A stretch of DNA of 64,000 bases from Haloferula helveola (GTDB lineage: Bacteria; Verrucomicrobiota; Verrucomicrobiia; Verrucomicrobiales; Akkermansiaceae), in the NCBI RefSeq assembly GCF_037076345.1, contig NZ_AP024702.1, positions 3,720,001-3,784,000 on the forward strand, read 5' to 3'. The notes under the pieces are model-generated. The model was not told the origin of the DNA. It was given only the letters and a program-made list of their open reading frames with translations, and searched no databases. Positions 29,306 through 45,760 of the stretch are shown here, piece by piece. Both the position numbers and the translations under genes were made by a program. Each line of letters opens with the position of its first letter. Positions within the stretch are counted from its first letter, which is position 1.

Positions 29306-29309
29306 AGGG

Positions 29310-29894: not shown

Positions 29895-30003
29895 TTGCTA
29901 GATTGTGTACCCGAGTCCGCTGGCTGTCGAGAGCGCCCATGCCTCCCTTTGGCGAGGAATTGCTGGGCAGACGGGCAAGACCGGGGTGCTAGGCTCGCCC
30001 CGG

Positions 30004-31260: not shown

Positions 31261-31265
31261 TCCGT

Positions 31266-32024
31266 TCAGGAGCCTTCCATGCGCTTGCGGTAGGCCAGCG
31301 GACTGACGCCCACGGCCTGCTTGAACTGGCGCGAGAATGCCGATTGGTCGGAGTAGCCGCAGGCGAGGGCGATCTGCGCGACCGGCTCCTTGGTCGACGC
31401 GAGTTGCTCGCAGGCGGCATCGATGCGCACCTTCACGAGATACTGGCCGGCGGTCAGGTGGAAGAGTGAGCGGATCCGCTGGTCGAACTGATAGACTGAA
31501 AGTCCGGCCATTTCCGCGAGCTGCGGCAGCCGTAGCGGCTCGTCGTAGTGGCGGTGGATGAAGTCGACCGTCTTCGACAGCGCATCGTAGTTCTTGGCCT
31601 TGTCGGCGGGGGCGGCGAGATCGCGCGAGCAGCCGCAGATGCCGATGATCGTGCCGTCCTTGCCGCGGATTGGTTCCTTGTAAGTCAGGCACCAGCCACT
31701 GCGGCCGCCGGGATAGAGGTGCATCTCGAGGCGGTCATGGAAGCCGACACCGGTCGCGAGGATCTCCTTGTCCTGCTCGAGAAAGGCTTCCGCCAGCGGC
31801 TCGGGATAGAGTTCGCGAGCGGTGTGCCCGATTGCCGCGAACTTGTCGGGGAGGCCGCAGCGCGAGGCGAAGGTCTCGTTCACCGCGACATAGCGGAAGT
31901 TGCGATCCTTCACGAAAATGAGGATATCCGAGATGTTGTCGAAAAGGTCGGCGATCGGCAGCAGTCCATCGATGGACTCGCCGAACCGTTTGCGGAAGAT
32001 GGCGGCGGCTTTCTGCAGATGCAT
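31266..32024 (-). CDS. PAS-AraC transcriptional regulator of hydroxyproline genes
   Basis: 252 residues. A PAS domain (about 22-135) contains NISDILIFVKDRNFRYVAVN and GWCLTYKEPIRGKDGTIIGI. A C-terminal AraC HTH pair (about 150-250) contains LRLPQLAEMAGLSVYQFDQR and VAQIALACGYSDQSAFSRQF, ending GVSPLAYRK. It is divergent from the epimerase gene over 91 bases and convergent with the dehydrogenase. Regulators of the AraC group control hydroxyproline use in other bacteria, so it probably activates the flanking catabolic genes. The ligand of its PAS domain is unknown. Confidence 0.87.
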   Translation of the reverse strand: MHLQKAAAIFRKRFGESIDGLLPIADLFDNISDILIFVKDRNFRYVAVNETFASRCGLPDKFAAIGHTARELYPEPLAEAFLEQDKEILATGVGFHDRLEMHLYPGGRSGWCLTYKEPIRGKDGTIIGICGCSRDLAAPADKAKNYDALSKTVDFIHRHYDEPLRLPQLAEMAGLSVYQFDQRIRSLFHLTAGQYLVKVRIDAACEQLASTKEPVAQIALACGYSDQSAFSRQFKQAVGVSPLAYRKRMEGS

Positions 32025-32115
32025 GGCGGCTGAACCCGTTCTCTAGACACATTCCGGGGCCGCCGCTAGCGCTTTTCACAATACCCGGGTGATATGACAG
32101 AAGGACTTCGCTTCA
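32025..32115. promoter_or_regulatory. Divergent regulator/epimerase control region
   Basis: 91 bases separate the start of the PAS-AraC gene from that of the epimerase. They hold GGCGGC (32025-32030) and GCCGCC (32059-32064) as inverted arms and a GAAGGA ribosome-binding site about 10 bases before the epimerase ATG. I cannot define a regulator site more closely. Confidence 0.35.
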
Positions 32116-33063
32116 ATGAAAGTCATCGATTCCCATACCGGCGGCGAACCGACCCGCATCATCGTTGAGGGTGGCCCCGATCTGGGCAGCGGACCGATCG
32201 CGGATCGGGCCCGCCGTTTCCGCGAGGAGCATGATCACATCCGCAGCGCCGTGTGCAACGAACCCCGCGGGCACGACGCGATGGTGGGCGGGATGCTGTG
32301 CGAGGCCCACGAGCCCGGCTGCGAGTGCGGGATCTTCTACTTCAACAACGTGACCACCTTGCACATGTGCATTCACGGAACGATCGGCCTGATCGCAACG
32401 CTGGCGCACATGGGACGGATCGGCCCGGGAAGGCACGGTATCGACACTCCGGTCGGGGTGGTGCACGCGGATCTCGACGAGACCGGCAAGGTCACCGTCG
32501 CGAACGTGCCAAGCTATCGCTATCGTGCCGGGGTGCCTGTCGAGGTCCCCGGCTGGGGCGAGGTGAAGGGCGACATCGCCTGGGGTGGGAATTGGTTTTT
32601 CCTGATCGAGGGTTTCGGTCCGGATGTCGAAGTGGCGAATCTCCACCGACTGACCGACTTCTCGCGGGCGGTCCGCCGCGCTCTGGCCGCGGGTGGAATC
32701 ACCGGTGAGGACGGCGGTGAGATCGACCATGTCGAGGTCTTCGGGCCTCCGGGAAATCCGGCAGAAGCCGATGGACGGAATTTCGTCCTCTGTCCGGGCG
32801 ATGCCTACGACCGCTCGCCATGTGGCACCGGAACGAGTGCCAAGCTCGCCTGCCTGGCCGCCGCAAATAAGCTGGCGCCGGGCGAGATCTGGCGTCAGGC
32901 GAGTATCCTCGACACGGTCTTCGAAGGCAGTTACGAGGCCCTTGACGGCGGGCGCATCCTGCCTCGAGTGAGCGGACGGGCATGGGTCACCGGTCAGTCC
33001 ATTTACCACTTCCAGCCCGACGATCCGTTCCAATACGGCATTCCCACCATCCAAGCATCCTGA
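32116..33063 (+). CDS. 4-hydroxyproline 2-epimerase
   Basis: 315-residue member of the proline racemase superfamily, converting trans-4-hydroxy-L-proline to cis-4-hydroxy-D-proline in the cytoplasm. Both acid/base cysteines are present: Cys85 in HMCIHGTIG and Cys236 in SPCGTGTSAK. That marks it as an epimerase or racemase and not a Cys/Thr dehydratase. The N-terminal KVIDSHTGGEPTRIIVEGGP is typical. The first motif has Ile where most relatives have Gly (MCGHG). It is followed 14 bases later by the aldehyde dehydrogenase, so the two form an operon. Confidence 0.93.
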   Translation: MKVIDSHTGGEPTRIIVEGGPDLGSGPIADRARRFREEHDHIRSAVCNEPRGHDAMVGGMLCEAHEPGCECGIFYFNNVTTLHMCIHGTIGLIATLAHMGRIGPGRHGIDTPVGVVHADLDETGKVTVANVPSYRYRAGVPVEVPGWGEVKGDIAWGGNWFFLIEGFGPDVEVANLHRLTDFSRAVRRALAAGGITGEDGGEIDHVEVFGPPGNPAEADGRNFVLCPGDAYDRSPCGTGTSAKLACLAAANKLAPGEIWRQASILDTVFEGSYEALDGGRILPRVSGRAWVTGQSIYHFQPDDPFQYGIPTIQAS

Positions 33064-33077
33064 CCACGAGCTAGACC

Positions 33078-34652
33078 ATGAGCACCCAACTTCTCGGAAC
33101 TTCCATCATCGGCTTCACCCGCAGCACCGGCACCGAATCGTCGGGTCAGGCGGTCAATCCTGCCAGCGGTCAGAAACTCGATCCCGTGTATGTCGCGCCG
33201 ACGCTTGACGAGGTCGACCAAGCGATCGCCCTCGCCGGTCAGGCATTTCCCGAATACTCGACATTGCCGGCCGCCAAGCGGGCTGAGTTCCTGCGGAAGA
33301 TCGCCGACGAGATCGACGCGGTCGTGGATGATATCGCCGAGCGTGGACCGCTGGAGACCGGCCTTCCGGAGCCCCGGATGCGGGGTGAGACCGCCCGCAC
33401 GACCGGCCAGCTCCGCCTGTTCGCGTCGCTGATCGAGGAAGGCTCGTGGGTCGATGCCCGCATCGAATTCGCCCAACCGGATCGCCAGCCGCTGCCCAAG
33501 CCGGATTTGCGCTCGATGCTGCGTCCGCTCGGCCCGGTGGCGGTGTTTTGCGCCAGTAACTTCCCGCTCGCGTTCTCGGTGGCCGGTGGCGACACCGCCG
33601 CGGCCCTCGCCGCCGGTTGCCCGGTGCTGGTCAAGGCGCACTCGTCCCACCCCGGCGTGGCGGAAATCGTCGGCAACTGCGTGCTGCGCGCCGCTCAGGC
33701 GACCGGCATGCCCGAAGGTGTTTTTTCCCTGCTGTATGGCAGTGGCCGCGAGGTCGGCATGGCACTGGTGAAGGATCCGGTCGTGCAGGCCGTCGGATTC
33801 ACCGGTTCGCGTTCCGGTGGGCTCGCCCTGATGGAGGCCGCCGCCAACCGGCCCCAACCGATTCCGGTCTACGCGGAGATGAGCAGCGTCAATCCGGTAG
33901 TGCTCCTGCCGGGCGCGGTCGAGGAGCGCGGTGAGGCTTTGGCGGAAGGGCTCTTCGGATCGCTCACACTGGGTGCCGGGCAGTTCTGCACCAACCCCGG
34001 CCTGATCTTCCTCCCCGACGGATGCGGCGACGCGTTCCTCGCCAAGCTGCGCGAGCTGGTCGAGACCGCGCCGTCGGCGGTGATGCTCAATCACGGCATC
34101 TGCCAGGCATTCAAGGAAGCGACCGCGGACTTCGCCGACACCCCGGGCGTGACGACGGTTGCCCACGCGTTCACCAAACAGGTGGAGGAGCGTGCGGTGC
34201 CGGTCGTTTTCACCGTCAATGTCCGTCGCTTCCTCGAGGATGCGGAGCTTCACGGAGAGATGTTCGGCCCGGGCACCCTGATCGTCCGCGGCAGTCTCGA
34301 GGAAATCGAGGCGACGATCCCGGAACTCGAAGGGCAGCTCACGGCGACCGTGCACGGCACCGACGACGAGTTGGCCTCCAGCGCGTCGCTGATCTCCGCT
34401 CTGGAGCGTCGTGCGGGACGTTTGATCATCAACGGTTTCCCGACCGGTGTGGAAGTCTGCCACTCGATGGTTCACGGCGGTCCCTTCCCGGCGACGTCCG
34501 ATGGTCGTAGTACTTCGGTCGGGACGATGGCGATCAACCGTTTCTGCCGCCCGGTCTCCTGGCAGGGCTTCCCGCAGGGCCTCCTTCCGGAAGAGCTCCG
34601 CGACGGTAATCCGCTCGGCATTTCCCGGATGGAGGACGGGAAGCGGGTGTGA
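33078..34652 (+). CDS. 2,5-dioxovalerate (alpha-ketoglutarate semialdehyde) dehydrogenase
   Basis: 524-residue NADP-type aldehyde dehydrogenase. Catalytic Cys near 303 in GAGQFCTNPG and Glu near 267 in YAEMSSVNPV; the cofactor-binding block is VAVFCASNFPLAFSVAGGD. The RSTGTESSGQAVNPASGQKL start and the NPxxAxNFPxAxxVAG-like core match the ketoglutarate semialdehyde dehydrogenase group. It would give 2-oxoglutarate as the last step of hydroxyproline breakdown. The same enzyme type also serves sugar-acid pathways, but the adjacent epimerase favours hydroxyproline. Confidence 0.9.
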   Translation: MSTQLLGTSIIGFTRSTGTESSGQAVNPASGQKLDPVYVAPTLDEVDQAIALAGQAFPEYSTLPAAKRAEFLRKIADEIDAVVDDIAERGPLETGLPEPRMRGETARTTGQLRLFASLIEEGSWVDARIEFAQPDRQPLPKPDLRSMLRPLGPVAVFCASNFPLAFSVAGGDTAAALAAGCPVLVKAHSSHPGVAEIVGNCVLRAAQATGMPEGVFSLLYGSGREVGMALVKDPVVQAVGFTGSRSGGLALMEAAANRPQPIPVYAEMSSVNPVVLLPGAVEERGEALAEGLFGSLTLGAGQFCTNPGLIFLPDGCGDAFLAKLRELVETAPSAVMLNHGICQAFKEATADFADTPGVTTVAHAFTKQVEERAVPVVFTVNVRRFLEDAELHGEMFGPGTLIVRGSLEEIEATIPELEGQLTATVHGTDDELASSASLISALERRAGRLIINGFPTGVEVCHSMVHGGPFPATSDGRSTSVGTMAINRFCRPVSWQGFPQGLLPEELRDGNPLGISRMEDGKRV

Positions 34653-34683
34653 GCTAGGCTTGCCGAGGAAGGGTTGACCTTTA

Positions 34684-35049
34684 ATGGCGGAGCTCGACCG
34701 ACTGCTCGAGGAGTTGGAGCAAACGTTCCTCTCAGCGAAGGTGAGCGATGGCTTCTTCGTGGAGGAATTGAATGCTCTGTCTTCCTATCTTTATTCTGAG
34801 TCAGAGAAGAGGCAGGCTTGGGACTGGCTCCATAGGAATCTGGATCGCGTAAAATCACCTCGGCGGAGGGAGGGATTGTGCATTGCGGTCTTCGAGTGTG
34901 CGGTAGAGGACCCGGAGGCTTACGAGTGGCGCTACATGCTTTCGAAGCTCTTGAAGCATCCTTCTCGATATTGGGTGCTGGTTAGGTCTTATCGGGACAC
35001 TCCCGACTTGCTGCTGCGTGACGTCCAGGAGCTGGGAACTCGGCATTAG
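34684..35049 (+). CDS. Hypothetical protein
   Basis: 121-residue helical, charged protein (MAELDRLLEELEQTF, SEKRQAWDWLHRNLDRVKS) with no motif I recognise. Its bases are clearly less GC-rich than those of the dehydrogenase before it, which suggests a separate origin. It ends 14 bases before the IS5-family insertion, and the insertion has not cut its frame. No partner gene is visible, so a toxin-antitoxin or immunity role cannot be supported. Confidence 0.6.
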   Translation: MAELDRLLEELEQTFLSAKVSDGFFVEELNALSSYLYSESEKRQAWDWLHRNLDRVKSPRRREGLCIAVFECAVEDPEAYEWRYMLSKLLKHPSRYWVLVRSYRDTPDLLLRDVQELGTRH

Positions 35050-35071
35050 GCGTGAAGACTTTAGGATCTGT

Positions 35072-35476
35072 TCACGAATTGCGTGCGATGATGAATGCCG
35101 CTACCAGATAGACCGCAGAGAAAAAGGTCTGAGAAAGCTTGTCGTAGCGCGTGGCAATGCGTCGGAAGTGTTTGATCTTGTTGAAGAACCGTTCGACCCG
35201 GTTTCGGCGGCGGTAGCGATTCCGGTCATACCGGATGACGCCTGCCCTTGAGTTGATCGGCGGGATCACCGCTTCAATGCCCTCGAAGTTCAGGCGCTCG
35301 CGGATGCGATTGGCGTCGTAACCCTTGTCGAGCATGGCTGCTTCCAGAACGTTCTCCGGCTGGAGGCTTTCGAAGAGTGTCTCGAACTGCCTGCCATCAT
35401 GGGCCTGGCCAGGGGTAAGATGCAGCGCCACGCTACAGTTCTCATCAATGGTTGCTGCGTGAATCTTGGTGCTCAA
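35072..35476 (-). CDS. IS5-family transposase, OrfB part
   Basis: 134 residues from the nominal start at 35476, though translation is expected to enter this frame by -1 shifting at the A8 run near 35514. It carries the second catalytic Asp in LDKGYDANRIRERL and the catalytic Glu in RRRNRVERFFNKIKHFRRI, completing the DDE triad. The final FSAVYLVAAFIIAR is typical of the family. The frame is intact and free of stops, so the element may be active. Confidence 0.9.
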   Translation of the reverse strand: MSTKIHAATIDENCSVALHLTPGQAHDGRQFETLFESLQPENVLEAAMLDKGYDANRIRERLNFEGIEAVIPPINSRAGVIRYDRNRYRRRNRVERFFNKIKHFRRIATRYDKLSQTFFSAVYLVAAFIIARNS

Positions 35477-35868
35477 TCCCCCTCGAGAGCGTCCGAGAGC
35501 CTGATCGGAAGAGTTTTTTTTGGCGCTCCGGCCGCATGCTGATGAGCTCGGACTGTGGTGGAGTCCATCATCAGTTCACGAGCTCCGGCAAAGTGCCCGC
35601 CTTGCATTTCCTGCCAAAGGCGCTTCCACACACCACGCTCCTGCCACCGCCGGAAACGCATGTAGACGGCATGCCAATAGCCCAGTTCAGGAGGTAGATC
35701 GCGCCACGGGCAACCTGTCCGGTTCAGATAAAGAACCGCCTCCATGAATTCGCGATCACTCATGGCCGGTGGAGCTCCCGCACGCGAATGCTTCGCCTTG
35801 GTCAGAGCACTTTCAATCTGCTCCCAAATCTCGTCGGTGATCATGCTTCGAGGATGTCCAGCTGGCAT
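35473..35868 (-). CDS. IS5-family transposase, OrfA part
   Basis: 131 residues, the N-terminal part of the transposase. The DUF4096-type DNA-binding region begins MITDEIWEQIESAL and continues RTGCPWRDLPPELG. The first catalytic Asp is in MMDSTTVRAHQHAAG. The zero-frame end (after GAPKKTLPIRL) is short. An A8 run at 35521-35514 allows a -1 shift that continues as KNSSDQALGRSRGGLSTKIH into OrfB, as in other IS427-group elements. Unshifted OrfA alone may regulate transposition. Confidence 0.9.
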   Translation of the reverse strand: MPAGHPRSMITDEIWEQIESALTKAKHSRAGAPPAMSDREFMEAVLYLNRTGCPWRDLPPELGYWHAVYMRFRRWQERGVWKRLWQEMQGGHFAGARELMMDSTTVRAHQHAAGAPKKTLPIRLSDALEGD

Positions 35869-35929
35869 CCGAAGCTTGAAACAAACGCTTCAGGAAAAGT
35901 ACAGATTTAATTCGTGAACAGATCCTAGT

Positions 35930-36000
35930 GGACCGCGAGCTTTAGCTCGCCCCATTGGCCGGGCTTCCGATACTCCGGGGCGAGCTGAAGCTCGCGGTCC
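35930..36000. repeat. REPIN-like paired palindrome (AGCT type)
   Basis: Arms GGACCGCGAGCTTTAGCTCG (from 35930, extending CCCC to 35953) and GGGGCGAGCTGAAGCTCGCG (from 35977, extending GTCC to 36000) are inverted copies. Each is itself a hairpin: GCGAGCT-TT-AGCTCGC and GCGAGCT-GA-AGCTCGC. It lies between the IS element and the stop of the AMP-forming ligase gene. No U-tract is present. Confidence 0.8.
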
Positions 36001-36021
36001 GATAGGGCGGCCGGATAAGAC

Positions 36022-37410
36022 TCAGTGTCTCCGGATCTTGCCGGAGGCGGTGAGAGGGAGTGATTCGACCACGGTGATCCGCATCGGGGTTTTGTAGGCC
36101 GAAAGGTGGGCCTTGCAGTGCTTTTGCAGGGCCACTGCCTTCGGTGGATCGGCGGGATCGGTCGGAATGATCTCCGCAACGGGGATCTGCCCCATGTGGG
36201 GGTGCTCAAGACCGAGCACCCGGCTTTGCCGGACGTCCGGGTGAACGTTGAGCACGGCCTCAATCTCTTCGGGGAAGACCTTCATGCCGGCGACGTTGAT
36301 GACGGACTTGGTCCGGCCGACGAGCGTCAGGTCGCCATCGCTGTCGCGGACGACCAGGTCGCCGCTTGCAAAGAACCCGTCTTCAAGAGGCTCGGGATCC
36401 CACGGCACCAGATAGGCATCGAGAAGACCGGGGCCACGCACGTGAAATTCTCCCGGGTGACCGTCGGCGACCGGGGTGCCGTCTTCGTCCCGAAGCTCAA
36501 TCTCGTAGGCGGGAAGCGGCCTGCCGAGAGCTCCGGGTTTGGCGGATGCGGCATCGAGGTTCAGAACGGACAACCCGACTTCGATGATCCCCAATCCCTG
36601 GACCAGCGGCTTTCCGAATCGCTGCTCGAACGAACGGCCGGTGGTCTCAGGGAGCTTGGCGGCCGTCGCGACCGCGAGGCGGAGGCTCGGCCAACCGAAG
36701 TCCCCCGGATCGGCCGCGAGTTGGGCGAAGTGGAAGGGCGAGCCGTAAATCACCGTGGCGGAGTGCTTTTCGGCACAGGCGAGAATGTCCTCACGGGTGG
36801 GGGAATGCTCCAGCAAGGTCAGCGCCCCGGCGTGGAGATAAAGCACGATGGAGACGGCAAAGTGGTGGGCCATCGGGAGCATCCACAGGACGCGGTCCCC
36901 GGGGCCGATCCGCATTCCTTCGTTGGCGGCGGTGATACGGGCGAGCAGGCTTTCATGGGACAGCACCACGCCCTTGCTCGTTCCAGTCGTGCCGGACGAG
37001 AAGCGGATGAAGGCCGGGTTCAGCGACTGGAATGCTAGCTCGGGAAACGAGGGCGGATGATCACAGGTGGTGATCTCATAGCCGTCCGTTTCCGAATGGG
37101 TCAGAACCAAATCAAGTGCTGTGGTGCGGGTAATCTCATCGCGTTCATCGGCGGTGAGTTCCTCGGCGAGCGGCACGAGGCAGCCGTCCCCGAGCAGGAT
37201 TCCCATCGCGAGCTGGATGTAGTCGAGGCCATTCGGGCAATGCAGTCCGACGCGGGGTTTGCGCCCGAGCGGGGCCGCTGCCTCACGGACCGCGTCGGCC
37301 ACGGGCCGGGCCGTCTCGAAGAGCTCACCGTAGGTGACCGCCCGGTCGCCGGCGACGACGGCTGGGGCGTCGGCGGGGTGAAGTCGGGCGATCTCCTCGA
37401 TCAGATTCAT
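36022..37410 (-). CDS. AMP-forming acyl/aryl ligase (ANL superfamily)
   Basis: 462-residue adenylating enzyme that would activate a carboxylic acid as acyl-AMP and load it on CoA or a carrier protein. P-loop IRFSSGTTGTSKGVVLSH near 133-150, A5-like QGLGIIEVG, A8-like LVGRTKSVINVAGMKVFPEE, and catalytic Lys in TASGKIRRH at the extreme C-terminus. It is somewhat short for the superfamily and ends right after the Lys. Its ATG overlaps the stop of the condensation-like gene (ATGA, 37407-37410). With an acyl carrier protein in the same operon, loading of that ACP is the best guess. Confidence 0.87.
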   Translation of the reverse strand: MNLIEEIARLHPADAPAVVAGDRAVTYGELFETARPVADAVREAAAPLGRKPRVGLHCPNGLDYIQLAMGILLGDGCLVPLAEELTADERDEITRTTALDLVLTHSETDGYEITTCDHPPSFPELAFQSLNPAFIRFSSGTTGTSKGVVLSHESLLARITAANEGMRIGPGDRVLWMLPMAHHFAVSIVLYLHAGALTLLEHSPTREDILACAEKHSATVIYGSPFHFAQLAADPGDFGWPSLRLAVATAAKLPETTGRSFEQRFGKPLVQGLGIIEVGLSVLNLDAASAKPGALGRPLPAYEIELRDEDGTPVADGHPGEFHVRGPGLLDAYLVPWDPEPLEDGFFASGDLVVRDSDGDLTLVGRTKSVINVAGMKVFPEEIEAVLNVHPDVRQSRVLGLEHPHMGQIPVAEIIPTDPADPPKAVALQKHCKAHLSAYKTPMRITVVESLPLTASGKIRRH

Positions 37411-38744
37411 GATCCGTGGACCGGTTCGCAGGCCTGCGGTGGAGCCGTTGCTTCTGGCGTGGCGGCCTCGATCCCGAGGTCTTCAAGCAAGGTGCCCACC
37501 AGGAGGTCACGCTCATCGGGCGTCAGGGTGCCGTTGAGTGTCGAAATGGTGCAGCTCAGTTGCCCATCGAACTCCGAGAAGAAGATCCCGATGCCCGGCG
37601 GCGAGGAGACGGTGGGGACATGGTAGCCGTTCAGCAGGCGGCTTCCGAACAGTTCGGAAACGCCGGGAGCGAATTCGCCCGTATGGGAATGGAAGAGCGA
37701 GCAGATCTCGCCCTTGAGGTAGAAGGACGCCGGCTTGAGATAGAGGAAGGATGGGCATCGCTCCATCAGTTTCATGAGCGCCTCCATCGCAGCGGGAAGC
37801 TTGCGGCGCATGAAGTCGGCATATTTCCGGTAGAGGGCTTTCGATGCGGTGCCGAGGTTCCGGAGTTCGGCCGGCTCCATCAGGAGCGAGTAGGCGACCA
37901 TGTGGTTCTGGAAAAGCGGGCGCTTCGCGGGGTTGGCGATGCGTTGGACGGGAAGGGACAGAAGGATAGGTGCCTCCTCGTCCGGATGCCTCCGGCAGAT
38001 CACCGCGTGCACCGCCCTCGCCGCGCAGGATGCGAAATACGGGAGCATTAGTAGTTCACCCGCGGTTCCGGCCATCTTCGTCCGGATCCGTGCCGAGGTT
38101 TCCCTGTCGAAATTGAAGACTTCGAAACGGGGGTCGCTTGGCGAGCGGGTCTTGTCGTGTAGCGAACGGATAGGCCACGCCGGAAAAGTGCGCATCTCCT
38201 CGACCATCGGCTTGGCCTCGCTCCAGAGCCCGCCCGGTGAGCCTTCGGTCTTCGAAGTTTCGCCCCAGTCCTCTCGGCGGTCGGTCGACAGGTTGTCCAG
38301 CTCGGAGATCAGCTTGTTAATGCCGATGGCGTCGAACAGTGCATGAGGCCAGACAAGGATCAGCCTCCAACTGTCGGGGCCATACTGAAGCGCGACGAGC
38401 TCGAGGTTCGGGCCGTCTTTGAGGATGTCGATTTTCGACGCCTCGATGAAAGTCCGGGCGTCCCGGGCCGGATCGCTACTTTCGTCCCGGTCACTCGTTT
38501 CCAAGGGACAGGGAAGGGGGTCGCCGGGGATCCAACGGGCGATGAAGTCCTTGCCGCGGGTGATCCGGGCATTGAGCAGGGGGTGGCGTTTGGCCAGCGC
38601 GTCGGCTGCCGCGCGAAGGCTTGCCGGATCCATCCGGCCCTCGAGTTCCAGAATGGTGGCGGAGAGATGGTGCCACTGCCCGCTGCGCCGCTTCTTCGAC
38701 TCAAGAGCGAGAAGAAAGCCGTCGCTGGTGGTGGCGGGAATCAA
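37407..38744 (-). CDS. NRPS condensation-domain-like acyltransferase
   Basis: 445 residues with the CAT-like fold pattern of condensation domains and PapA/WS-DGAT-type acyltransferases. The N-terminal SATILELEGRMDPASLRAAA and KRHPLLNARI segments match the C-domain start. The active-site block reads LVWPHALFDAIG in place of HHxxxDG, keeping the catalytic second His and the Asp but replacing the first His with Pro and the Gly with Ala. It stands alone with no adenylation or carrier domain. It presumably joins an ACP-bound acyl group to an alcohol or amine. It is coupled to the ligase gene by ATGA overlap. Confidence 0.78.
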   Translation of the reverse strand: MIPATTSDGFLLALESKKRRSGQWHHLSATILELEGRMDPASLRAAADALAKRHPLLNARITRGKDFIARWIPGDPLPCPLETSDRDESSDPARDARTFIEASKIDILKDGPNLELVALQYGPDSWRLILVWPHALFDAIGINKLISELDNLSTDRREDWGETSKTEGSPGGLWSEAKPMVEEMRTFPAWPIRSLHDKTRSPSDPRFEVFNFDRETSARIRTKMAGTAGELLMLPYFASCAARAVHAVICRRHPDEEAPILLSLPVQRIANPAKRPLFQNHMVAYSLLMEPAELRNLGTASKALYRKYADFMRRKLPAAMEALMKLMERCPSFLYLKPASFYLKGEICSLFHSHTGEFAPGVSELFGSRLLNGYHVPTVSSPPGIGIFFSEFDGQLSCTISTLNGTLTPDERDLLVGTLLEDLGIEAATPEATAPPQACEPVHGS

Positions 38745-38765
38745 AGTGGAATAACGGGTGGGGCT

Positions 38766-38996
38766 TCAGGCCTGTTTCGACCGGACCAGGGCGGCGATGC
38801 GGGTCGCGGTTTGGAAGTTGTCGCGGGAGAGGTCGACCGGGTCGATGGCGGTTCCGAAGCGGTCTTCGATCGAAAGCAGGAGCTGCATGATGCCCATGGA
38901 ATCGAGGCCGATCTCGAAGAGGTCGGTCTCCGGAGTGATCTCGCCGTCGTGATCGAGGAGGTCATCGCGCAGGATCTGGATCAGTTCGTCTTCCAT
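38766..38996 (-). CDS. Acyl/peptidyl carrier protein
   Basis: 76-residue, acidic, free-standing carrier protein. The phosphopantetheine Ser lies in GLDSMGIMQLLLSIED near residue 33, with DLFEIG before it and a helix IV-like TATRIAALVRS at the end. It differs from housekeeping fatty-acid ACP (no DSLDTVEL block). It is encoded 12 bases after the patatin-like gene and 21 before the condensation-like gene, so it is the likely carrier for this module. Confidence 0.9.
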   Translation of the reverse strand: MEDELIQILRDDLLDHDGEITPETDLFEIGLDSMGIMQLLLSIEDRFGTAIDPVDLSRDNFQTATRIAALVRSKQA

Positions 38997-39008
38997 GGGC
39001 TGGGGAAA

Positions 39009-39848
39009 TCAAAGATGGCGGGTGGCCGATTGGCCAGAGTCGAACCCGCGATCGTAGCAAAGGGGAGCGAGTTTGCCGCTCAACAGACCGGGAAAGGGAG
39101 TCGTGGTATCGAGTTCGATGAGTCGTTTGCCGTGCATTTCGCATCGCTCGACGCGCAAGCGGTGGAGTTCGTTGCAGGCGGTGTGGTGGGCGGTTCCGAT
39201 CGAGTTCGCGACGGTTTCCCAGCCGACATTCGGTCCGCTTCCCGACTCGTGGCGGATCCGGTGGATCAAGATCGTGTCGATCTCCGGATCCTCGATCAGG
39301 TGTTCGAAGGGGAGCTCACAGGCGATGCCGCCATCGAGATACCGGCGCTCGCCGATTTGCTGGACCGTGAAGAGTCCTGGCACGGCGCACGAAGCCATGA
39401 CGGATTCCGCGACGGGTCCTTGACGGAGGATTTCGGCGCGCGAGCCGACGACGTCGGTGACCGCGATGTCCAAGGGCAGCTCCGACAGATCCGTTTCACC
39501 GAGGAGATCCCGCAGGTGGGCGACCGTGCGTTTTCCATGGAAAACCCCGGTGGCCCAGAAGGAGGTCAGCACTCCCGGCAGCCTCCACAGGCCGCCGACA
39601 TCGGTGAACGACCACCGCAGGCGGCCGGAGGTCGCCTCCCGTTTGAGCTCCTCACCCCGCAGGCCGCCGCTGAACAGGGCTCCTGCCAAGGCGCCCGCCG
39701 AGGAACCGGCGATCCTCGCGGGTTCGAGGCCCGCGGCCATCAGCCCGTTGAGGAAGCCGGCGTGGGCGTAGACTCCGAGAAACGACGAGCCGAGGACCAC
39801 GGCGGTGCGGCCGGGAGAAGCGGGCGGGTTGGAGGGTTCGGACGTCAA
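39009..39848 (-). CDS. Patatin-like phospholipase/acyl hydrolase
   Basis: 279-residue cytoplasmic patatin-fold protein using a Ser-Asp dyad. Nucleophile block IAGSSAGALAGALFSGG (Gly-x-Ser-x-Gly) near 46-62 and the Asp in RYLDGGIACELPFEHL near 170. The oxyanion segment is VLGSSFLGVYAHAG, a variant of the usual Gly-Gly-Gly-x-x-Gly. The family hydrolyses acyl esters of lipids and sometimes of carrier-bound products. As first gene of the four-gene acyl operon it may release, edit or transfer the product. Heptamer repeats of TTTCAAG type lie just upstream. Confidence 0.85.
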   Translation of the reverse strand: MTSEPSNPPASPGRTAVVLGSSFLGVYAHAGFLNGLMAAGLEPARIAGSSAGALAGALFSGGLRGEELKREATSGRLRWSFTDVGGLWRLPGVLTSFWATGVFHGKRTVAHLRDLLGETDLSELPLDIAVTDVVGSRAEILRQGPVAESVMASCAVPGLFTVQQIGERRYLDGGIACELPFEHLIEDPEIDTILIHRIRHESGSGPNVGWETVANSIGTAHHTACNELHRLRVERCEMHGKRLIELDTTTPFPGLLSGKLAPLCYDRGFDSGQSATRHL

Positions 39849-39913
39849 GGGCGTGGCGGAGTCTCAAGTTTCAAGTTTTCAGTTTCAAGATCCGGGGGCA
39901 GGTTTGCGCCGAG

Positions 39914-40279
39914 ATGACGGAGGTCGCCGTGAACTACAAGACCGGCAGCGAGAAGCTGATCAAGGTGCTCGACGGTGCGTCGGCGCACCTGCGCGGGCTG
40001 CTGGAGAAGCAGGGCCGCGCCGATGGTGCGCTGCGGATCGCCGTGATCGGCGGTGGCTGTAGCGGATTGCAGTATAAGATGGATCTGGTCGATGGCCCGC
40101 GGGATCGCGACATCCTTGTGCCGAGCAACGGAGTGCAGGTGGTGATCGATCCCAAGAGTGCCCTTTTCGTCAGCGGCAGCGAGCTCGACTACTCGGACGA
40201 TCTTCAGCAGGGCGGGTTCAAGGTCAGCAACCCGAACGCCGTGGTGACTTGTTCCTGTGGTGAGAGTTTCGCGGCCTGA
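39914..40279 (+). CDS. A-type iron-sulphur carrier (IscA/ErpA/HesB family)
   Basis: 121-residue cluster carrier. The three cluster-binding cysteines are present: one in VIGGGCSGLQYKMDL and two in the C-terminal TCSCGESF. SGSELDYSDDLQQGGFKVSNPNA is the typical block between them. The family accepts clusters from the IscU/SufB scaffold and hands them to target proteins in the cytoplasm. The next genes encode the HscB/HscA chaperone pair, so it belongs to an ISC-type assembly module. No iscS or iscU gene lies within the window. Confidence 0.92.
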   Translation: MTEVAVNYKTGSEKLIKVLDGASAHLRGLLEKQGRADGALRIAVIGGGCSGLQYKMDLVDGPRDRDILVPSNGVQVVIDPKSALFVSGSELDYSDDLQQGGFKVSNPNAVVTCSCGESFAA

Positions 40280-40295
40280 GGACCGGAGGGGGAAG

Positions 40296-40829
40296 ATGGA
40301 TGCTTTTGCGGAGCTGGGGCTGGAGCGGAGTCTGACTCTGGATGGCGAGAGTCTAAAGGCGGCGGTGACGGCGGCCGGAAAAGAGCGCCATCCGGATGCG
40401 GGGGGAACGGCGGAGGATTTCGCGCGCCTGCAGCAGGCGAAGGGATTGCTGGAGCGCCCAGTGTCGCGTCTGAAGCACTGGTTGGAGCTTGAAAAAGTAC
40501 CCGGCGACATGCGGGGCACGGTGTCCGACGATCTGATGGCGGTCTTTTCGGAAATGGGAGTGCTGCTCCAGCAGACCGACGAATTGCTGCGGGAGCGGGA
40601 AAAGGTGTCGAGCGCCCTGGCCAAGGCGATGCTCGAAGGCAGGGTGCAGGAGTGTCGCGAGAAGCTTGAAGCGATGCAGGACCGGCTGGGAGAGATGGTC
40701 GAGGTTCGGGTCGAACGTTTCGGGTCCATCGAGGTGGGTGGGACGGACGGCTGGGAGGTTGCCCGGGATCTGGGTTTTCTCGCCAAATGGCAGGGCGAGG
40801 TGCGCGATCGATTCGCGCGTTTGTGGTAG
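40296..40829 (+). CDS. hscB: Iron-sulphur cluster co-chaperone HscB
   Basis: 177 residues from ATG 40296, preceded by GGAGGGGG as ribosome-binding site. The N-terminal J-domain carries the HPD tripeptide in KERHPDAGG, which stimulates the HscA ATPase. The C-terminal helical domain has the RPVSRLKHWLELE and MGVLLQQTDELLR pattern seen in HscB, where it holds IscU. The J-domain is compact. It starts 16 bases after the IscA-like stop and is followed by hscA, which supports the assignment. Confidence 0.88.
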   Translation: MDAFAELGLERSLTLDGESLKAAVTAAGKERHPDAGGTAEDFARLQQAKGLLERPVSRLKHWLELEKVPGDMRGTVSDDLMAVFSEMGVLLQQTDELLREREKVSSALAKAMLEGRVQECREKLEAMQDRLGEMVEVRVERFGSIEVGGTDGWEVARDLGFLAKWQGEVRDRFARLW

Positions 40830-40884
40830 GCCGCCGGCCCGATTGAGGCTTGGCATTCCCGTCGGGGCACGGCAGAGCGGGGCC

Positions 40885-42660
40885 GTGGAGGAAGTCATCG
40901 TAGGAATCGACTTGGGAACGACCCACTCGGCCGTGGGTGTGGTGGACTCCGGATTCCCGATCCTGCTTGCGAATGAGGACGGTCGGCGGGTGATACCGAG
41001 TGCCGTTTGGTTCGGAGCGAGCGGCGAGGTGGAGGTCGGGGAGAAAGCCCTGCGACGCAGGGGAGTGACGCCGGTGGTGACAAGCGTGAAGCGCCTGATG
41101 GGCCGGAGATCCGGCGAAGTGGATGATTTTCCGCTGCCACTCGATGAGGGAGACGGCCTGCGGGTGCTGGGCCGGACGCCCGAGGAAGTCAGTGCGGAGA
41201 TTCTCAAGGAACTGAAACGGGTGGCGAGCTGGCGACTGGATCGCGAGGTCCACAAGGCGGTGATCACGGTGCCGGCTTACTTCAATGATGCGCAGCGGTC
41301 GGCGACCAAGAAGGCGGGCGAACTGGCCGGGCTCGAGGTGGTGCGGATTCTCAACGAACCAACCGCGGCAGCCCTCGCCTACGGGCTGGAGCGGCTCGGA
41401 GAGAGCTCCCGGGCGGCAGTGTATGATCTGGGTGGTGGCACCTTCGACCTCTCGGTGCTCGAGATGCGGGACGGCGTGTTCGAAGTGCTCTCAACCTGTG
41501 GCGACACCCGGCTAGGGGGTGATGATCTCGACCGGGCCCTGCTCGATTGGGTGGTCGGGAAATCCGGAGCCGAATTTTCCGATCCCATGATGCGGGAGCG
41601 TGCCCTGACCGAAGCGGAGCGGGTGAAGCGGCAGCTCTCGGATCGCGAGGTGGAAAGCTTCCGCCTGCCATTCGCCGGGGAGGCGGGAGGAGTCGAGTGC
41701 GAGGTGACCCGTGGCGATCTGGAGCGCTTGGCCAAGCCGCTGATCGAGCGCTCGATCGCCTGCTGTCGCAGGGCTTTGGCGGATGCCGATCTCCGGAAAG
41801 AGGATCTCGATGCGGTGGTGCTCGTCGGAGGCAGCACGCGGATTCCCGCGGTGCGCGCGGCGGTCGCCGAGTTTTTCGGCCGGGAGCCTGACCTGTCCCA
41901 GCATCCCGACGAGGCGATCGCTCTCGGTGCGGCGATCCAGGCCGGGGTGCTCAGCGGGGCGATGCGCAAGGTGGTGCTGCTCGATGTCACACCGCTGAGC
42001 CTTGGTATCGAGACTTTCGGCGGCTTGATGAACGTGCTCATTCCCCGCAATTCGACCATCCCGACCAAGGCCGGGGAGATGTTCACCAATGCGGTAGCCG
42101 GGCAGCGCTCGATGAGTATTCGGGTGCTTCAGGGCGAACGGGAGATGGCGCGGGACAACTGGAAGCTTGGTGATTTTGCGGTGGAGTTCGAACCTGCGGA
42201 GAAAGGGCGAGCCCGGGTCGGGGTGCAGTTTTCCATCGATGAGAATGGGATCCTGCAGGTGCTCGCCCGCGACACCGCCACGGGGAAGGATGTGGTGGTC
42301 GAAATCCGCGACGCGGCGGTCGACGTCGAGGACGAGAAAGTCGAGGCGATGGTCAGCGAGTCGATCGAACATGCCTTCGACGACATGGCCGAAAGGGTGT
42401 TCACCGAAGCCCGGCTGAAGGCCGAGGAGCTTTTGCCTGCGGTCGCTTCTGTTCTGGATCAGGGAGCCGGTCTTGTCGATGAGACCGAGGCCGCTTCGAT
42501 CCGGGCCGCCGAGGCGGAGGTGAGGGCCGCGATCGAGGAGCAGGACGCGAATCGTCTCAAGGCCGCCGTCGAGGTTCTCGACAAGGCGACCGAGGGTGTG
42601 GCGGCGAAGCTGGTGGAGCGGGCGATGGAAGAGGCGCTGGCCCGCCGTATGGAGGAATGA
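40885..42660 (+). CDS. hscA: Hsp70-type iron-sulphur chaperone HscA
   Basis: 591-residue Hsp70. ATPase signatures GIDLGTTHSAVGVV, VPAYFNDAQRSATKKAGELA, YDLGGGTFDLSVLE and VVLVGGSTRIPAVRAAVAEF. The substrate-binding domain starts VTPLSLGIETFGG near 372. The C-terminus lacks the long acidic EEVD-like tail of DnaK, and the protein is shorter than DnaK, fitting HscA. I chose the GTG at 40885 because it places five residues before the first strand; the frame is open to 40666 inside hscB. With HscB it would release clusters from IscU. It follows hscB by 55 bases. Confidence 0.9.
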   Translation: MEEVIVGIDLGTTHSAVGVVDSGFPILLANEDGRRVIPSAVWFGASGEVEVGEKALRRRGVTPVVTSVKRLMGRRSGEVDDFPLPLDEGDGLRVLGRTPEEVSAEILKELKRVASWRLDREVHKAVITVPAYFNDAQRSATKKAGELAGLEVVRILNEPTAAALAYGLERLGESSRAAVYDLGGGTFDLSVLEMRDGVFEVLSTCGDTRLGGDDLDRALLDWVVGKSGAEFSDPMMRERALTEAERVKRQLSDREVESFRLPFAGEAGGVECEVTRGDLERLAKPLIERSIACCRRALADADLRKEDLDAVVLVGGSTRIPAVRAAVAEFFGREPDLSQHPDEAIALGAAIQAGVLSGAMRKVVLLDVTPLSLGIETFGGLMNVLIPRNSTIPTKAGEMFTNAVAGQRSMSIRVLQGEREMARDNWKLGDFAVEFEPAEKGRARVGVQFSIDENGILQVLARDTATGKDVVVEIRDAAVDVEDEKVEAMVSESIEHAFDDMAERVFTEARLKAEELLPAVASVLDQGAGLVDETEAASIRAAEAEVRAAIEEQDANRLKAAVEVLDKATEGVAAKLVERAMEEALARRMEE

Positions 42661-42718
42661 GCAGCGTCAGGGGCTTGTGATCCGGACGGATCCGGCGCAG
42701 CCTCCGGCCGAGCACCGC

Positions 42719-43768
42719 ATGAGCGATTCCGACCACGACCACGATCCGGAAACCGAAGACGTCGGCGTCGAGCTGAGGGTTTTCGGCGGAGGCGCTCCCG
42801 CGGGCTGGGAGCGCGTCGCTGATGTTGAGGAAGTGGTGCGGCTGAAGAAGGATGGAGTCACCGGCGTGCGTTCGACCGACGAGGCCGAGCCCGGATTCGA
42901 CGAACCGGAACCCCGAAAGCATCACAAGAGCCGGCGGAACCACCGGATCGCGACCCTCTCCATGGCGGGTGCGGCCTGCATCCTCGTGATCGGCACCGTG
43001 GCCTTCGTGATGTGGAAGCGCGGTGACAAGCCCGGTGACCGGAGTGCTTTCGACATCATCGAAATGGCACCGGGTGAGGCTGGCAGCGCAGGTGACCGGT
43101 TTGCGAAATCCACCGGACGCTACTACAAGGAAGCCCGTGAAATTCTCGGTTCATTCCTCGCGGCGGCAACGCCGGAAGAGGCAGCCAAGTGGGTTCGCGG
43201 AGGAGAAGGGATGTTGGAATTCATCCGACGGGATACGGGTGCGGTCCAGCTGAGTGATGATGACATTTACCGGATGAAGCTCAAAGTTCACGACGGCGCG
43301 GAGGGTCGCCAGTGGATCTCGCTCGACGGCAAGGACGGGCTCCGACGGAATGTGGAGGCGGTATTCGTGGTGAACGGTGATGGCCTCGAATTCGATTGGG
43401 CCGCAACGACCGGTGCGAGCGAGTTGGGCCTTGAGGAACTGCGGAGTTCCGAACCCGGTACCGAGGCGCTGATCCGTGTCGTGGTTTCCGGTGACAGCTT
43501 CTACAACAGCACGTTTCCGGAAGAAGAGGTCCGGTGTTTCGAAATCGAATCCGCATCGGGACTGGAAGTCGCGTGGGCCTACGCGCCGAAGTCATCGGAA
43601 GTCGTGAGACAGATTGACGAGGCCCTCCATGCCGACGGCACGATCCTGACGAGTGAGAACTCGGCCAAGATGACCTTGCGCGTCAGGAATTCGGGTTCGG
43701 GTACGACGGGTCAATTCGAGCTCGTCGATGTGGTGGCCAAGGGATGGATCATTTGGGAGAGCCCTTGA
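42719..43768 (+). CDS. Single-pass membrane protein, tandem paralogue 1
   Basis: 349 residues from ATG 42719. The acidic His/Asp-rich N-terminus (SDHDHDPETED) has a GAPAGWERV segment. A basic stretch leads to a transmembrane helix near 82-102 (LSMAGAACILVIGTVAFVMW). The extracytoplasmic part of about 240 residues contains ILGSFLAAATPEEAAKWVRG, GLEFDWAATTG and ends FELVDVVAKGWIIWESP. Order of elements and the final segment resemble the next gene, so the two seem paralogous. Function unknown; start is 58 bases after hscA. Confidence 0.68.
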   Translation: MSDSDHDHDPETEDVGVELRVFGGGAPAGWERVADVEEVVRLKKDGVTGVRSTDEAEPGFDEPEPRKHHKSRRNHRIATLSMAGAACILVIGTVAFVMWKRGDKPGDRSAFDIIEMAPGEAGSAGDRFAKSTGRYYKEAREILGSFLAAATPEEAAKWVRGGEGMLEFIRRDTGAVQLSDDDIYRMKLKVHDGAEGRQWISLDGKDGLRRNVEAVFVVNGDGLEFDWAATTGASELGLEELRSSEPGTEALIRVVVSGDSFYNSTFPEEEVRCFEIESASGLEVAWAYAPKSSEVVRQIDEALHADGTILTSENSAKMTLRVRNSGSGTTGQFELVDVVAKGWIIWESP

Positions 43769-43770
43769 AG

Positions 43771-44862
43771 ATGGAGACGGGAGGATGGTTCCACTGCGGA
43801 CGATGCGGAGACTTCTTCCGCGGGAAGGAAGGTGACCTATGTCCGGACTGCGGGCGAAGCCCTGTCGTCGAGGAGTCCGAACTCGCGTTTCTGGAGGCCG
43901 CGAGGCAGGCCGACAAGAAGTCCATGAACAGGAGAACTTCCTCCGGGTCCAATCGCCCGGACGAACTTCGCGCCAAATCGTCGAAGGCCAAGAGTATCGC
44001 ATGGTTTGTCCTCGGATGGATCCTGTTCCTCGGGTTCGTCGTCTGGATGGTCAACATCTCCCGCCAGCAGGGATCGGACTCGCTAGCGGGCCAGAAAAGC
44101 GTGACGGAGTTGGCCGAGAGCGGCCGGGAGTTTCAGGAGGCCTACCAAGCCTGCCACGGACTGGTGGCGTCGTTTCTTGCGAGTGCGGCTTCCGAGCACC
44201 GTGCGAAGCTGACCTACCAACCCGACGAGACCCTGAGGAAAATGGTGAATTTCCAGGGTGACGGGTTGGTCGGTACTGATGGCGAAGAGTTCACTCTGCC
44301 GACCTTCCGGTGGATTGAGACTCCGAAGGGTAGGATGTGTGAGAGCATCGGAATGATGGGGGAAGACCGGAGACTCGAGTTCCTTTTCATCAAGAATCAC
44401 GAGGGTGAGTGGTCGATCGATTGGGACAACCTCGTTCGCTACTCGACGCAGCCATTGTCGGTTTTTGTTGCCGGAGAAGGTCCCGAAGTCGGGGAGTTTC
44501 GCGTTTTTGCCCGTCGCCGGGCGGGGTCGAGTGGGGAACAGGGAGACGTATCTAGGATCATGCTGTTCGAGCCCCGTCCGTGGTCTCCCGCCGAGACGGG
44601 CTCCCGTTCCCCGGAGATTCTGGTGGATCCGGAATCGGAAACCGGGCGGATCCTGACAGCGGCATTCGAACTGGTCGATGATGAGGAGGCTCCCTACGGA
44701 ACCGAACTCCACGAGGAGGACCCGTATTCGATGGCCAGGCTGCGGGTCCGCCTGCGGCGCGATCCTGAGAATCCCAAGCGGATCGAGATCGAGGAAGTCC
44801 TCGCGTGCCACTGGTTCTCGATCGACGACCTTGGAGTGCGGGTCGAACCGGCCGAAGACTGA
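43771..44862 (+). CDS. Zinc-ribbon membrane protein, tandem paralogue 2
   Basis: 363 residues from ATG 43771, two bases after the stop of the previous gene. An N-terminal zinc ribbon (FHCGRCGDFF then LCPDCGRSP) is followed by a basic linker and a transmembrane helix near 75-95 (IAWFVLGWILFLGFVVWMVN). The outer domain contains LVASFLASAASEHRAKLTY, GEWSIDWDNLV and ends IEIEEVLACHWFSIDDLGV, matching the layout of the upstream protein. The ribbon may sense metal or bind nucleic acid on the cytoplasmic side. I do not recognise a described family. Confidence 0.7.
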   Translation: METGGWFHCGRCGDFFRGKEGDLCPDCGRSPVVEESELAFLEAARQADKKSMNRRTSSGSNRPDELRAKSSKAKSIAWFVLGWILFLGFVVWMVNISRQQGSDSLAGQKSVTELAESGREFQEAYQACHGLVASFLASAASEHRAKLTYQPDETLRKMVNFQGDGLVGTDGEEFTLPTFRWIETPKGRMCESIGMMGEDRRLEFLFIKNHEGEWSIDWDNLVRYSTQPLSVFVAGEGPEVGEFRVFARRRAGSSGEQGDVSRIMLFEPRPWSPAETGSRSPEILVDPESETGRILTAAFELVDDEEAPYGTELHEEDPYSMARLRVRLRRDPENPKRIEIEEVLACHWFSIDDLGVRVEPAED

Positions 44863-44868
44863 GCGGCC

Positions 44869-45756
44869 CTAGCCGAGGCCGGCGCGCATCGCTTCGGTCG
44901 GATCGGTGCCGGGAAACCAGTAGCGGAAGGCGGCGACTCCCTGATGCAGCAGCATACCCTTGCCGTTGGCGGTGCGGGCGCCTGCCTGCTCCGCCGCAAT
45001 CAGGAACGAAGTACGGGGTGGCTGGTAGATCGAGTCGAAAACGGCGTGCCGGGGGAAGAAGCATCCGGCGGGGAGCGGTGAAGGGTCATCGGCCTTCAGG
45101 CCGAGCGATGAAGTGTTGACGAGAAGCGAGCAGGAACCGGTGAGCTCCTGAAGCACTTCGGCAGGGGCGTCGGCTCCGCAGGTGATCAGATCGACATCCG
45201 GATGGAGACGGCGGATCTTGGTGGCCAGTTCCTCGATCTTCGAGATCGTGCGGTTGGACAGGACGATGCGGGCGACACCGGAGCAGGCGCAATGCGTGGC
45301 AATGGCGCCGCCGGCTCCGCCGCCTGCTCCGGCAATGAAGACCGCCGCATCACTGAGTTCGAATTCGAGGTCTTCGCGGATGGCTTGCTCGAAGCCGTAG
45401 CCGTCGGTGTTGGTGCCGCGGATGGCATCGTCATCGAAGCGCACGGTGTTGACCGCTCCGAGTTCACGAGCGGCGTCCTCGATTTCGTCGCAGGCGGCCA
45501 ACGCCTCGAACTTGTGGGGGACCGTGACGTTGCAGCCGATGAATCCGAGTTCGCGCATACGAGCGAAGGTTTGGGCCACCGTGCCCGGATCGACCTCGAC
45601 GGCGATGTAGCTGGCGTCGATGCCGGCTTCATCGAGCGCCGGTTGGTGCATCCTCGGTGAGGCCGAGTGACCGACCGGATGGCCGATCACGGCAAGGCGT
45701 GCGGGTTTGTCGCCGGCGTTGGCTTCTTCGAGCGTCTCGGGTCGGTAAACGGGCAT
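44869..45756 (-). CDS. aroE: Shikimate dehydrogenase
   Basis: About 295 residues. NADPH-dependent reduction of 3-dehydroshikimate in aromatic amino-acid synthesis. Substrate site GHPVGHSASPRMHQ (two Ser) and NVTVPHKFEA with the catalytic Lys; NTDGYGF carries the catalytic Asp. The cofactor loop is GAGGGAGGAIA and NRT follows it. I chose ATG 45756, which leaves a 4-base gap to the small membrane-protein gene; the ATG at 45783 would overlap it. It is last in the gltX-membrane protein-aroE minus-strand series and converges with the zinc-ribbon gene. Confidence 0.93.
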   Translation of the reverse strand: MPVYRPETLEEANAGDKPARLAVIGHPVGHSASPRMHQPALDEAGIDASYIAVEVDPGTVAQTFARMRELGFIGCNVTVPHKFEALAACDEIEDAARELGAVNTVRFDDDAIRGTNTDGYGFEQAIREDLEFELSDAAVFIAGAGGGAGGAIATHCACSGVARIVLSNRTISKIEELATKIRRLHPDVDLITCGADAPAEVLQELTGSCSLLVNTSSLGLKADDPSPLPAGCFFPRHAVFDSIYQPPRTSFLIAAEQAGARTANGKGMLLHQGVAAFRYWFPGTDPTEAMRAGLG

Positions 45757-45760
45757 GGGA

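Follow-up and report, generated by a model that had tools for sequence, protein, structure and literature searches.

The subject of this analysis is a group of four genes in a 64,000-nucleotide stretch of the genome of Haloferula helveola (the whole stretch is hereafter called the window; the genome is a single contig of 5.68 Mb, denoted C1). Calling of open reading frames (ORFs) confirmed that the four genes are real and that all of them are encoded on the (-) strand, at window positions 36022–39848. As described in the initial annotation of this DNA, they are small and closely spaced. In the order of transcription, PAT, a patatin-like hydrolase/acyltransferase (39009–39848, 279 aa, TTG start), is followed after a gap of 12 nt by ACP, a DltC-like acyl carrier protein (38766–38996, 76 aa), then after 21 nt by CND, a free-standing condensation-fold protein and probable acyltransferase (37407–38744, 445 aa, TTG start), and finally by LIG, an AMP-forming acyl/aryl acid ligase (36022–37410, 462 aa), whose frame overlaps that of CND by 4 nt.

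CND matches the Condensation family of Pfam (PF00668, 3e-06, 26.7 bits) under the gathering cut-off of 30.6, and the search of NCBIfam yielded only a weak match to PapA5 (20.6 of 396 bits). In the structural model of CND, residues 1–426 of the 445 correspond to condensation domains. Instead of the full HHxxxDG motif of nonribosomal peptide synthetase (NRPS) condensation (C) domains, CND exhibits PHALFDA (residues 133–139, in the context WPHALFDAIG), in which H134xxxD138 (38331–38345, - strand) corresponds to the second His and the Asp of the orthodox motif. This replacement, correctly noticed in the initial annotation, turned out to be the normal form of the CND family, described by the pattern W[PS]H[ASL]..D[AG].G: the first His is replaced by P or S in all 18 aligned rows, while H134, D138 and G141 are invariant in the 18 rows of one alignment (A1) and the 19 rows of another (A3). 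A degenerate active site was considered for PHALFDA and ruled out, the His and the Asp being invariant. Profile alignments place the motif on the HxxxDG of solved condensation domains, and AzeD of Pseudomonas aeruginosa likewise has P ahead of the His. The structural check of the active site that had been proposed earlier was carried out on an AlphaFold model of CND (pLDDT 84.3, pTM 0.86), whose whole chain conforms to the two-lobed condensation-fold (CAT-like) superfamily. Fold comparison and a Foldseek search identified AzeD (8s6l) as the closest solved structure (Z 34.5, root mean square deviation [rmsd] 3.4, 405 residues aligned), along with the CDA C domain (5du9; Z 29.6, rmsd 3.5, 382 aligned), PapA5 (Z 26.9, rmsd 3.6, 352 aligned) and a wax ester synthase (Z 26.1, rmsd 4.2, 338 aligned), all at sequence identities of 10–16%. 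On the strength of the motif invariance and the predicted fold, CND represents a divergent condensation-fold family with the catalytic residues retained. It resembles SgcC5, PapA5, wax ester synthase and starter C domains in the predicted fold, in the catalytic His and Asp and in an acyl donor that is probably carrier-bound, but differs from them in the P or S at the first His, the subthreshold PF00668 score and the low identity. AzeD, which we take to belong to the azetidomonamide pathway, shares with CND the PH...D at the motif, but only 16% of identical residues. Azetidomonamide itself is described as an NRPS-derived product in the available part of PMC10880069.

ACP (PF00550, 6.9e-13) has its phosphopantetheine site LDSM at Ser33, and the same LDSM is present in all 13 of its relatives displayed; its best solved relatives are D-alanyl carrier proteins, and its score against the NCBIfam model of DltC (42.2 bits) does not reach the cut-off of 68. 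LIG (PF00501, 1.5e-56, and PF13193) keeps the P-loop FSSGTTGTSKG, the A5 Glu in GIIE and the TASGK motif with the SGK lysine (Lys458), as do adenylating ligases of the ANL superfamily. SGK and a stretch HF.V[ST] at A4 are conserved in all 23 LIG sequences compared. In amino-acid ligases, an Asp at A4 binds the α-amino group; no such Asp is seen in this stretch of LIG, which has HHF there instead. Among solved structures, LIG is closest to benzoate-CoA, malonyl-CoA and dihydroxybenzoate-AMP ligases, and the 25 best of 106 NCBIfam families shown for it do not include FlxY. The ACP and LIG pair could be compared to the D-alanylation pair DltA/DltC, from which it differs not only by the subthreshold DltC score and by HHF in place of Asp, but also by the absence of a DltB-like acyltransferase from the operon. 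PAT (PF01734, 3.7e-22, 79.9 bits) exhibits the Ser-Asp dyad of patatin-like phospholipases (Ser50 in GxSxG, Asp172 in DGG), and in an alignment of 14 sequences that includes the window's, G48, S50, G52, D172, G173 and G174 never vary. The oxyanion loop usual for patatins is rich in glycine, GGGxxG; the loop of PAT, GSSFLG, departs from it, as had been remarked in the initial annotation, and the departure is itself conserved, S21, S22 and G25 (SS..G) being invariant in the same 14 sequences. In comparison with two relatives, nonsynonymous divergence (dN 0.15–0.34) is lower than synonymous divergence (dS 0.52–1.05) for all four genes, of which CND is the fastest-changing; IscA, a housekeeping neighbour used as a control, has dN of 0.05.

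A search for CND in 57 genomes of relatives (18 from the genus, 39 from outside) at a threshold of 1e-3 returned matches in 25. Six of these (G003, G043, G049, G050, G052 and G053) were set aside, their matches being shorter than 140 aa and mostly within very long frames. The 19 genomes with full-length CND comprise 15 of the 18 from the genus and 4 from another family of the order; in one of them, G012, CND is split over two contigs (L034/L035), and it was counted as one genome without joining the pieces. In each of the 15 genus genomes with CND, ACP and LIG are found with it; therefore the operon is more than a chance arrangement, and the recurrence of the set in relatives rules out that it is an orphan. 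PAT adjoins the set in only 6 of these 15 genomes (the window's, G013, G014, G016, G017 and G004, where it is cut by the contig end), which rules out the patatin as an obligate member; in G002, G006, G007, G009 and G015 its orthologue is found beside IscA/HscB and the set is located elsewhere. Thus, the conserved four-gene neighbourhood anticipated in the initial annotation exists as far as ACP, CND and LIG are concerned, within the genus and also outside it, where the set recurs as adjacent genes, as fusions or in part, but does not regularly extend to the patatin. In 7 of the 15 genomes, LIG has a gene for a halogenase-like flavoprotein in its vicinity. CND is absent from the 17 members of the same family outside the genus covered by the 57-genome search, and one further member, G299, was found to possess it in the search of the phylum; its distribution in the genomes searched is patchy and is not that of a housekeeping gene. 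Among the genus loci, 10 from nine genomes have DNA identical to database records, including those of Haloferula luteola, H. rosea, Haloferula sp. BvORR071 and Luteolibacter marinus. In locus L024 (10680–12200) there is a reverse-transcriptase gene (PF00078) right downstream of LIG, and an ORF from the same BLAST cluster follows LIG in L032.

A profile search with CND across 387 genomes of the phylum matched 42 (5 from the genus, 4 from a Prosthecobacter-like family, f4, and 33 others). Outside the genus 37 loci were read: 20 from the 33 genomes, chosen mainly by score and by the length of their contigs, 4 from family f4, and 13 from database records. Ten further record loci (L040–L048 and L060) are identical in DNA to loci from the searched genomes and were not double-counted, whereas the other 13 record loci have no match of at least 98% over 2 kb to the latter. 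Some ORF selections relied on a heuristic of GC content by codon position, by which some short genes were missed or mis-started; the gene survey of the 37 loci used six-frame ORFs. Twenty-two of the 23 database-record CND loci are titled as Verrucomicrobiota organisms, and the remaining one as a metagenome-assembled genome of Nitrospirota. Of the 37 loci, 16 have ACP as an N-terminal fusion to CND and another 14 have it as an adjacent gene; LIG lies within 2.5 kb of CND in 17, and a ketosynthase (KS) gene occurs in the fetched stretch of 15; an oxidoreductase of PF12831 was found in 7 and a halogenase-like flavoprotein in 9. For the 20 phylum loci the corresponding numbers are 14 with LIG within 2.5 kb, 14 with KS and 10 with both, and these loci also encode radical S-adenosylmethionine (SAM) protein homologues (13 loci), LpxL-like acyltransferases (11), GT2 glycosyltransferases (10) and FlxY-like ligases (3).

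The stretch L094 carries CND and a 255-aa LIG ORF at the contig start, together with KS, a ketoreductase (KR), a second KS fused to an ApeP-like dehydratase, and an MMPL protein, with matches to E. coli ApeR (3e-158), ApeO (2e-99), ApeQ (9e-98) and ApeM (7e-81). The fused KS of this polyene cluster, at L094:4613–6301, has its dehydratase part in PF22817. L056 with its continuation L153 encodes ACP-CND, a PF12831 oxidoreductase, LIG, a halogenase-like FAD protein, a Na/H exchanger, KS, a partner resembling the chain-length factor (CLF), MMPL, GT2, a deacetylase and an acyltransferase; LolA is represented there by a weak match only. This content corresponds to most of the inventory given in the available text on the arcuflavin (PMC3949708) and flexirubin (PMC3992019) clusters. 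In L101, the one locus tested against NCBIfam, the radical-SAM protein exceeds the cut-off of TIGR04072 (493.8 versus 360), and the FlxY-like ligase scores 396 bits, under the FlxY cut-off of 520; in the window, no match to this ladderane-type family (rSAM_ladder_B12-type) lies at 12 kb or less from CND. "Ladderane" clusters are reported for Verrucomicrobiota and other non-anammox phyla, where they may serve unknown functions, in the available part of PMC9902471. In three Prosthecobacter-like genomes (L037, L038 and L039) the ACP-CND fusion lies between genes of the RtcA/RtcB/Ro60 type and those for phosphofructokinase and thioredoxin, with no polyketide synthase (PKS) nearby; the families of these neighbours were searched in L037 alone, and the BLAST clusters are common to all three.

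The statement that no PKS is attached holds for the operon of H. helveola, but a pair of KS genes lies about 67 kb away. At C1:3,822,761–3,828,894, 63–69 kb from the operon, we identified an ApeD-like acyltransferase, a FabZ-type dehydratase (DH), a second AMP ligase (LIG2), a KS with the Cys and its CLF-like partner. LIG2 matches ApeH weakly (7e-05); of the 17 genus genomes with both LIG2 and KS, 7, the window's included, encode them side by side. LIG, on the other hand, has no match to any E. coli ape protein, ApeH included, at 1e-3, and was therefore dismissed as the ApeH counterpart; none of the 17 ape proteins of E. coli matches an ORF in window 29001–46000. About 145 kb away, at C1:3.608–3.614 Mb, there are genes for KR, an ApeE-like ACP, a membrane protein of PF03706, a patatin paralogue and a type III PKS; the same stretch (L131:8660–15121) also encodes an FAD protein and may be a partner of resorcinol type for the polyene genes. 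Further away are an ACP together with a PF12831 oxidoreductase (C1:1.687 Mb) and, at C1:3.528 Mb, a halogenase-like FAD protein that is 61% identical to the neighbour of LIG in G007. Thus, the window's genome has genes of the aryl polyene kind for KS, CLF-like KS, KR, FabZ-type DH, ACP, a starter-type AMP ligase and a lysophospholipid acyltransferase (LPLAT), the ligase on a weak match. There are also 11 MMPL matches, none of them tied to the polyene-type or operon loci. In G006 and G008, CND and KS are 32–33 kb apart. In G000 and G001, members of the patatin family accompany KR and PF03706 genes, and G028 has one in a KS cluster; the family is also found with pathway genes elsewhere, but is not tightly linked to the set.

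Co-occurrence was counted across the 57 relatives. KS (at least 55% identity) occurs in every one of the 19 genomes with CND and in 15 of the 38 others. The PF12831 oxidoreductase was found in 18 of the 19, missing from G010, whose genome is 72% complete, and in 6 of the 38; the Fisher values for these counts are not independent evidence, because the genomes are related. For the 39 genomes outside the genus, KS is found in 4 of 4 CND-bearing genomes versus 13 of 35 others, and the oxidoreductase in 4 of 4 versus 4 of 35. The pattern is nested, with KS in all 24 oxidoreductase-bearing genomes.

At the level of sequence, then, the gene set, its conservation, the active-site residues, the predicted fold, the ACP-CND fusions, the co-location of CND with PKS genes in relatives and the co-occurrence are established, and the association of the set with aryl-polyene-type genes is well supported. 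Aryl polyene clusters (ape of E. coli CFT073, xanthomonadin, flexirubin and arcuflavin; flexirubin is a polyene ester of dialkylresorcinol) have in common with our loci the KS/CLF-like, KR, FabZ-like DH, ACP, AMP ligase, LPLAT, GT2, LolA and MMPL genes, which are found with the set or co-occur with it across relatives. In the window's genome these genes are scattered, unlike in the known clusters, and are supplemented by an extra ligase/ACP/condensation-fold arm; the ape region of E. coli has no condensation-type product annotated. The arcuflavin genes, to judge by the locus numbers in the available part of PMC3949708, are likewise at separate places. In our reading, to which we give about even chances, the operon serves as an accessory loading-and-transfer arm in the synthesis of aryl-polyene-type (yellow-pigment, type II PKS) lipids, a pathway dispersed over the chromosome. 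ACP-CND-LIG is read as an additional arm because it is LIG2, and not LIG, that resembles ApeH and adjoins KS, and the ACP-CND fusions support the action of CND on that particular carrier. From the above we infer a substrate, an acceptor, a type of bond, a role for the patatin and a joint action of the scattered loci. LIG would adenylate a carboxylic acid, probably an aryl and not an α-amino acid, and load it onto the DltC-like ACP; the PF12831 oxidoreductase or the halogenase-like flavoprotein, encoded with the set in some relatives, may modify the carrier-bound acyl group; CND would then employ His134 as the base to transfer the acyl from ACP to the polyene lipid or to its anchor, at a hydroxyl or an amine, yielding an ester or amide; and PAT would probably hydrolyse or trans-acylate mis-loaded acyl groups or lipid intermediates.

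A broader suggestion is more tentative, and we regard it as less likely than not: in Verrucomicrobiota, a dedicated free-standing condensation-fold enzyme might add a second ligase-activated acyl group, perhaps oxidised or halogenated, to aryl-polyene lipids from its own, often fused, carrier. According to the available parts of the sources, Oceaniferula flavus (Verrucomicrobiota) has aryl polyene and type III PKS clusters predicted by antiSMASH (PMC9865893), aryl polyenes are one possible source of the yellow colour of a Pontiella strain (PMC7356697), and the anchor of the E. coli aryl polyene was not known, the lipid of X. doucetiae being noted as newly solved (PMC8253772). No description of a condensation-fold enzyme in aryl-polyene pathways was found among the literature matches listed (titles and beginnings of abstracts), and searches on Haloferula clusters, on Luteolibacter with aryl polyene and on Verrucomicrobi with free-standing condensation returned nothing on the ACP-CND-LIG set; a C-domain route to esters or amides of polyene lipids was thus not met in the literature searched. 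The view that this is not a described pathway is therefore only half right: the pathway appears to belong to a described kind, that of the aryl polyenes, and what was not found described is the accessory arm. As capping, decoration and anchoring of aryl polyenes are known for few bacteria, CND with its own ligase and carrier is a testable candidate for one bond-forming step in a little-studied phylum. Pathways with scattered genes are perhaps under-reported by cluster-based mining, and the set could provide a handle on them.

Several observations weigh against an accessory arm of a polyene pathway. In the window's genome the genes of the aryl polyene kind are at least 63 kb from the operon, which is neither clustered with them nor next to a KS; in the stretches of this genome that were searched, ApeC has no match to the CLF-like gene, and ApeP, ApeL and ApeM match no ORF. 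Seven loci show no ACP in the 37-locus survey (L059 starts inside CND at the contig start, and L109 has a weak ACP match in another search), and seven ACP-CND fusions (L037, L038, L039, L052, L054, L057 and L058) have no PKS, LIG or flavoprotein match in the stretch read; for L055 and L062, the contigs do not reach far enough for the neighbours to be judged. The co-occurrence counts are confounded by kinship, 15 of the 19 CND genomes being from one genus, and the KS is also present in the 15 genomes without CND mentioned above. G001 and G005 keep KS and the oxidoreductase and have no CND, G031 has ACP, oxidoreductase and LIG in a full polyene-like cluster that is devoid of CND, and G013 has CND and no close halogenase-like gene. 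Finally, the nearest solved fold of CND carries the title of a dehydratase, and acyl transfer is not the sole chemistry possible for this fold.

Could the four genes instead make a small ester, amide or lipid of their own, with no relation to a PKS? The operon without a PKS gene, the distance to the KS pair and the several fused ACP-CND genes of Prosthecobacter-like genomes without a PKS neighbour are all consistent with such a stand-alone pathway, but the KS genes in the fetched stretches of 15 of the 37 loci outside the genus and the polyene-type KS in every CND-bearing genome among the 57 relatives argue against it, and so does the patatin, which is not adjacent to the set in 9 of 15 genus genomes. 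The complete cycle of four enzymes proposed in the initial annotation finds no support as a self-contained one, given the loose link of the patatin and the frequent position of CND inside PKS clusters of the aryl-polyene type in distant relatives. We regard a stand-alone pathway as rather unlikely. Or perhaps LIG and ACP make the aryl starter thioester, and CND shuttles it between carriers to prime the polyene KS instead of decorating the finished product? LIG is nearest to ligases of the benzoate and hydroxybenzoate type, and the first step proposed for aryl polyenes in the available part of PMC8253772 is the attachment of an aryl acid to an ACP. However, the position beside KS is taken in 7 of 17 genus genomes by LIG2, with its weak resemblance to ApeH, whereas LIG has none, and some KS-bearing genomes have no CND, which makes starter loading a distinctly unlikely role for the set.

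The two other alternatives concern single proteins and find less room beside the accessory loading-and-transfer arm. CND may not be an acyltransferase at all, but act on the ACP-bound group by dehydration, epimerisation or a similar reaction, as some condensation-fold proteins do; AzeD, as its closest fold and with its P before the conserved His, points in this direction, but the acyl-transferring CDA C domain, PapA5 and wax ester synthase match the model over nearly the full length, and we find this alternative improbable. That LIG is a housekeeping fatty acyl-CoA ligase with incidental neighbours, as might be imagined from its best NCBIfam model, a long-chain-fatty-acid CoA ligase family (219 of 476 bits, far under the cut-off), is very improbable in the face of its linkage to ACP and CND throughout the genus and of the patchy spread of CND, with no match in the 17 searched members of the family that do not belong to the genus, though G299 has it; the loading of CoA for ordinary fatty-acid use, which the initial annotation named as the finding that would undo it, is accordingly disfavoured by the genomes compared.

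The operon is bounded downstream of LIG by an insertion sequence of the IS5 type (35064–35925), which is not a member of it and consists of two transposase ORFs (PF13340/PF01609) between exact 17-bp inverted ends (35064–35080 and 35909–35925). Upstream of PAT are divergent ORFs identified by eye as IscA, HscB and HscA. A tRNA-Ser(cga) predicted by ARAGORN at 39691–39770 is antisense within the patatin gene and was judged a false positive, probably spurious. Beyond the insertion sequence, at window positions 29905–34652, ORFs named by eye as an oxidoreductase, an AraC-type regulator, a proline-racemase-like epimerase and a semialdehyde-dehydrogenase-like protein resemble a hydroxyproline catabolic set. 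Immediately to the left of the window, a carrier domain (C1:3719458) is encoded in an open frame of 1309 aa, perhaps an NRPS-like gene.

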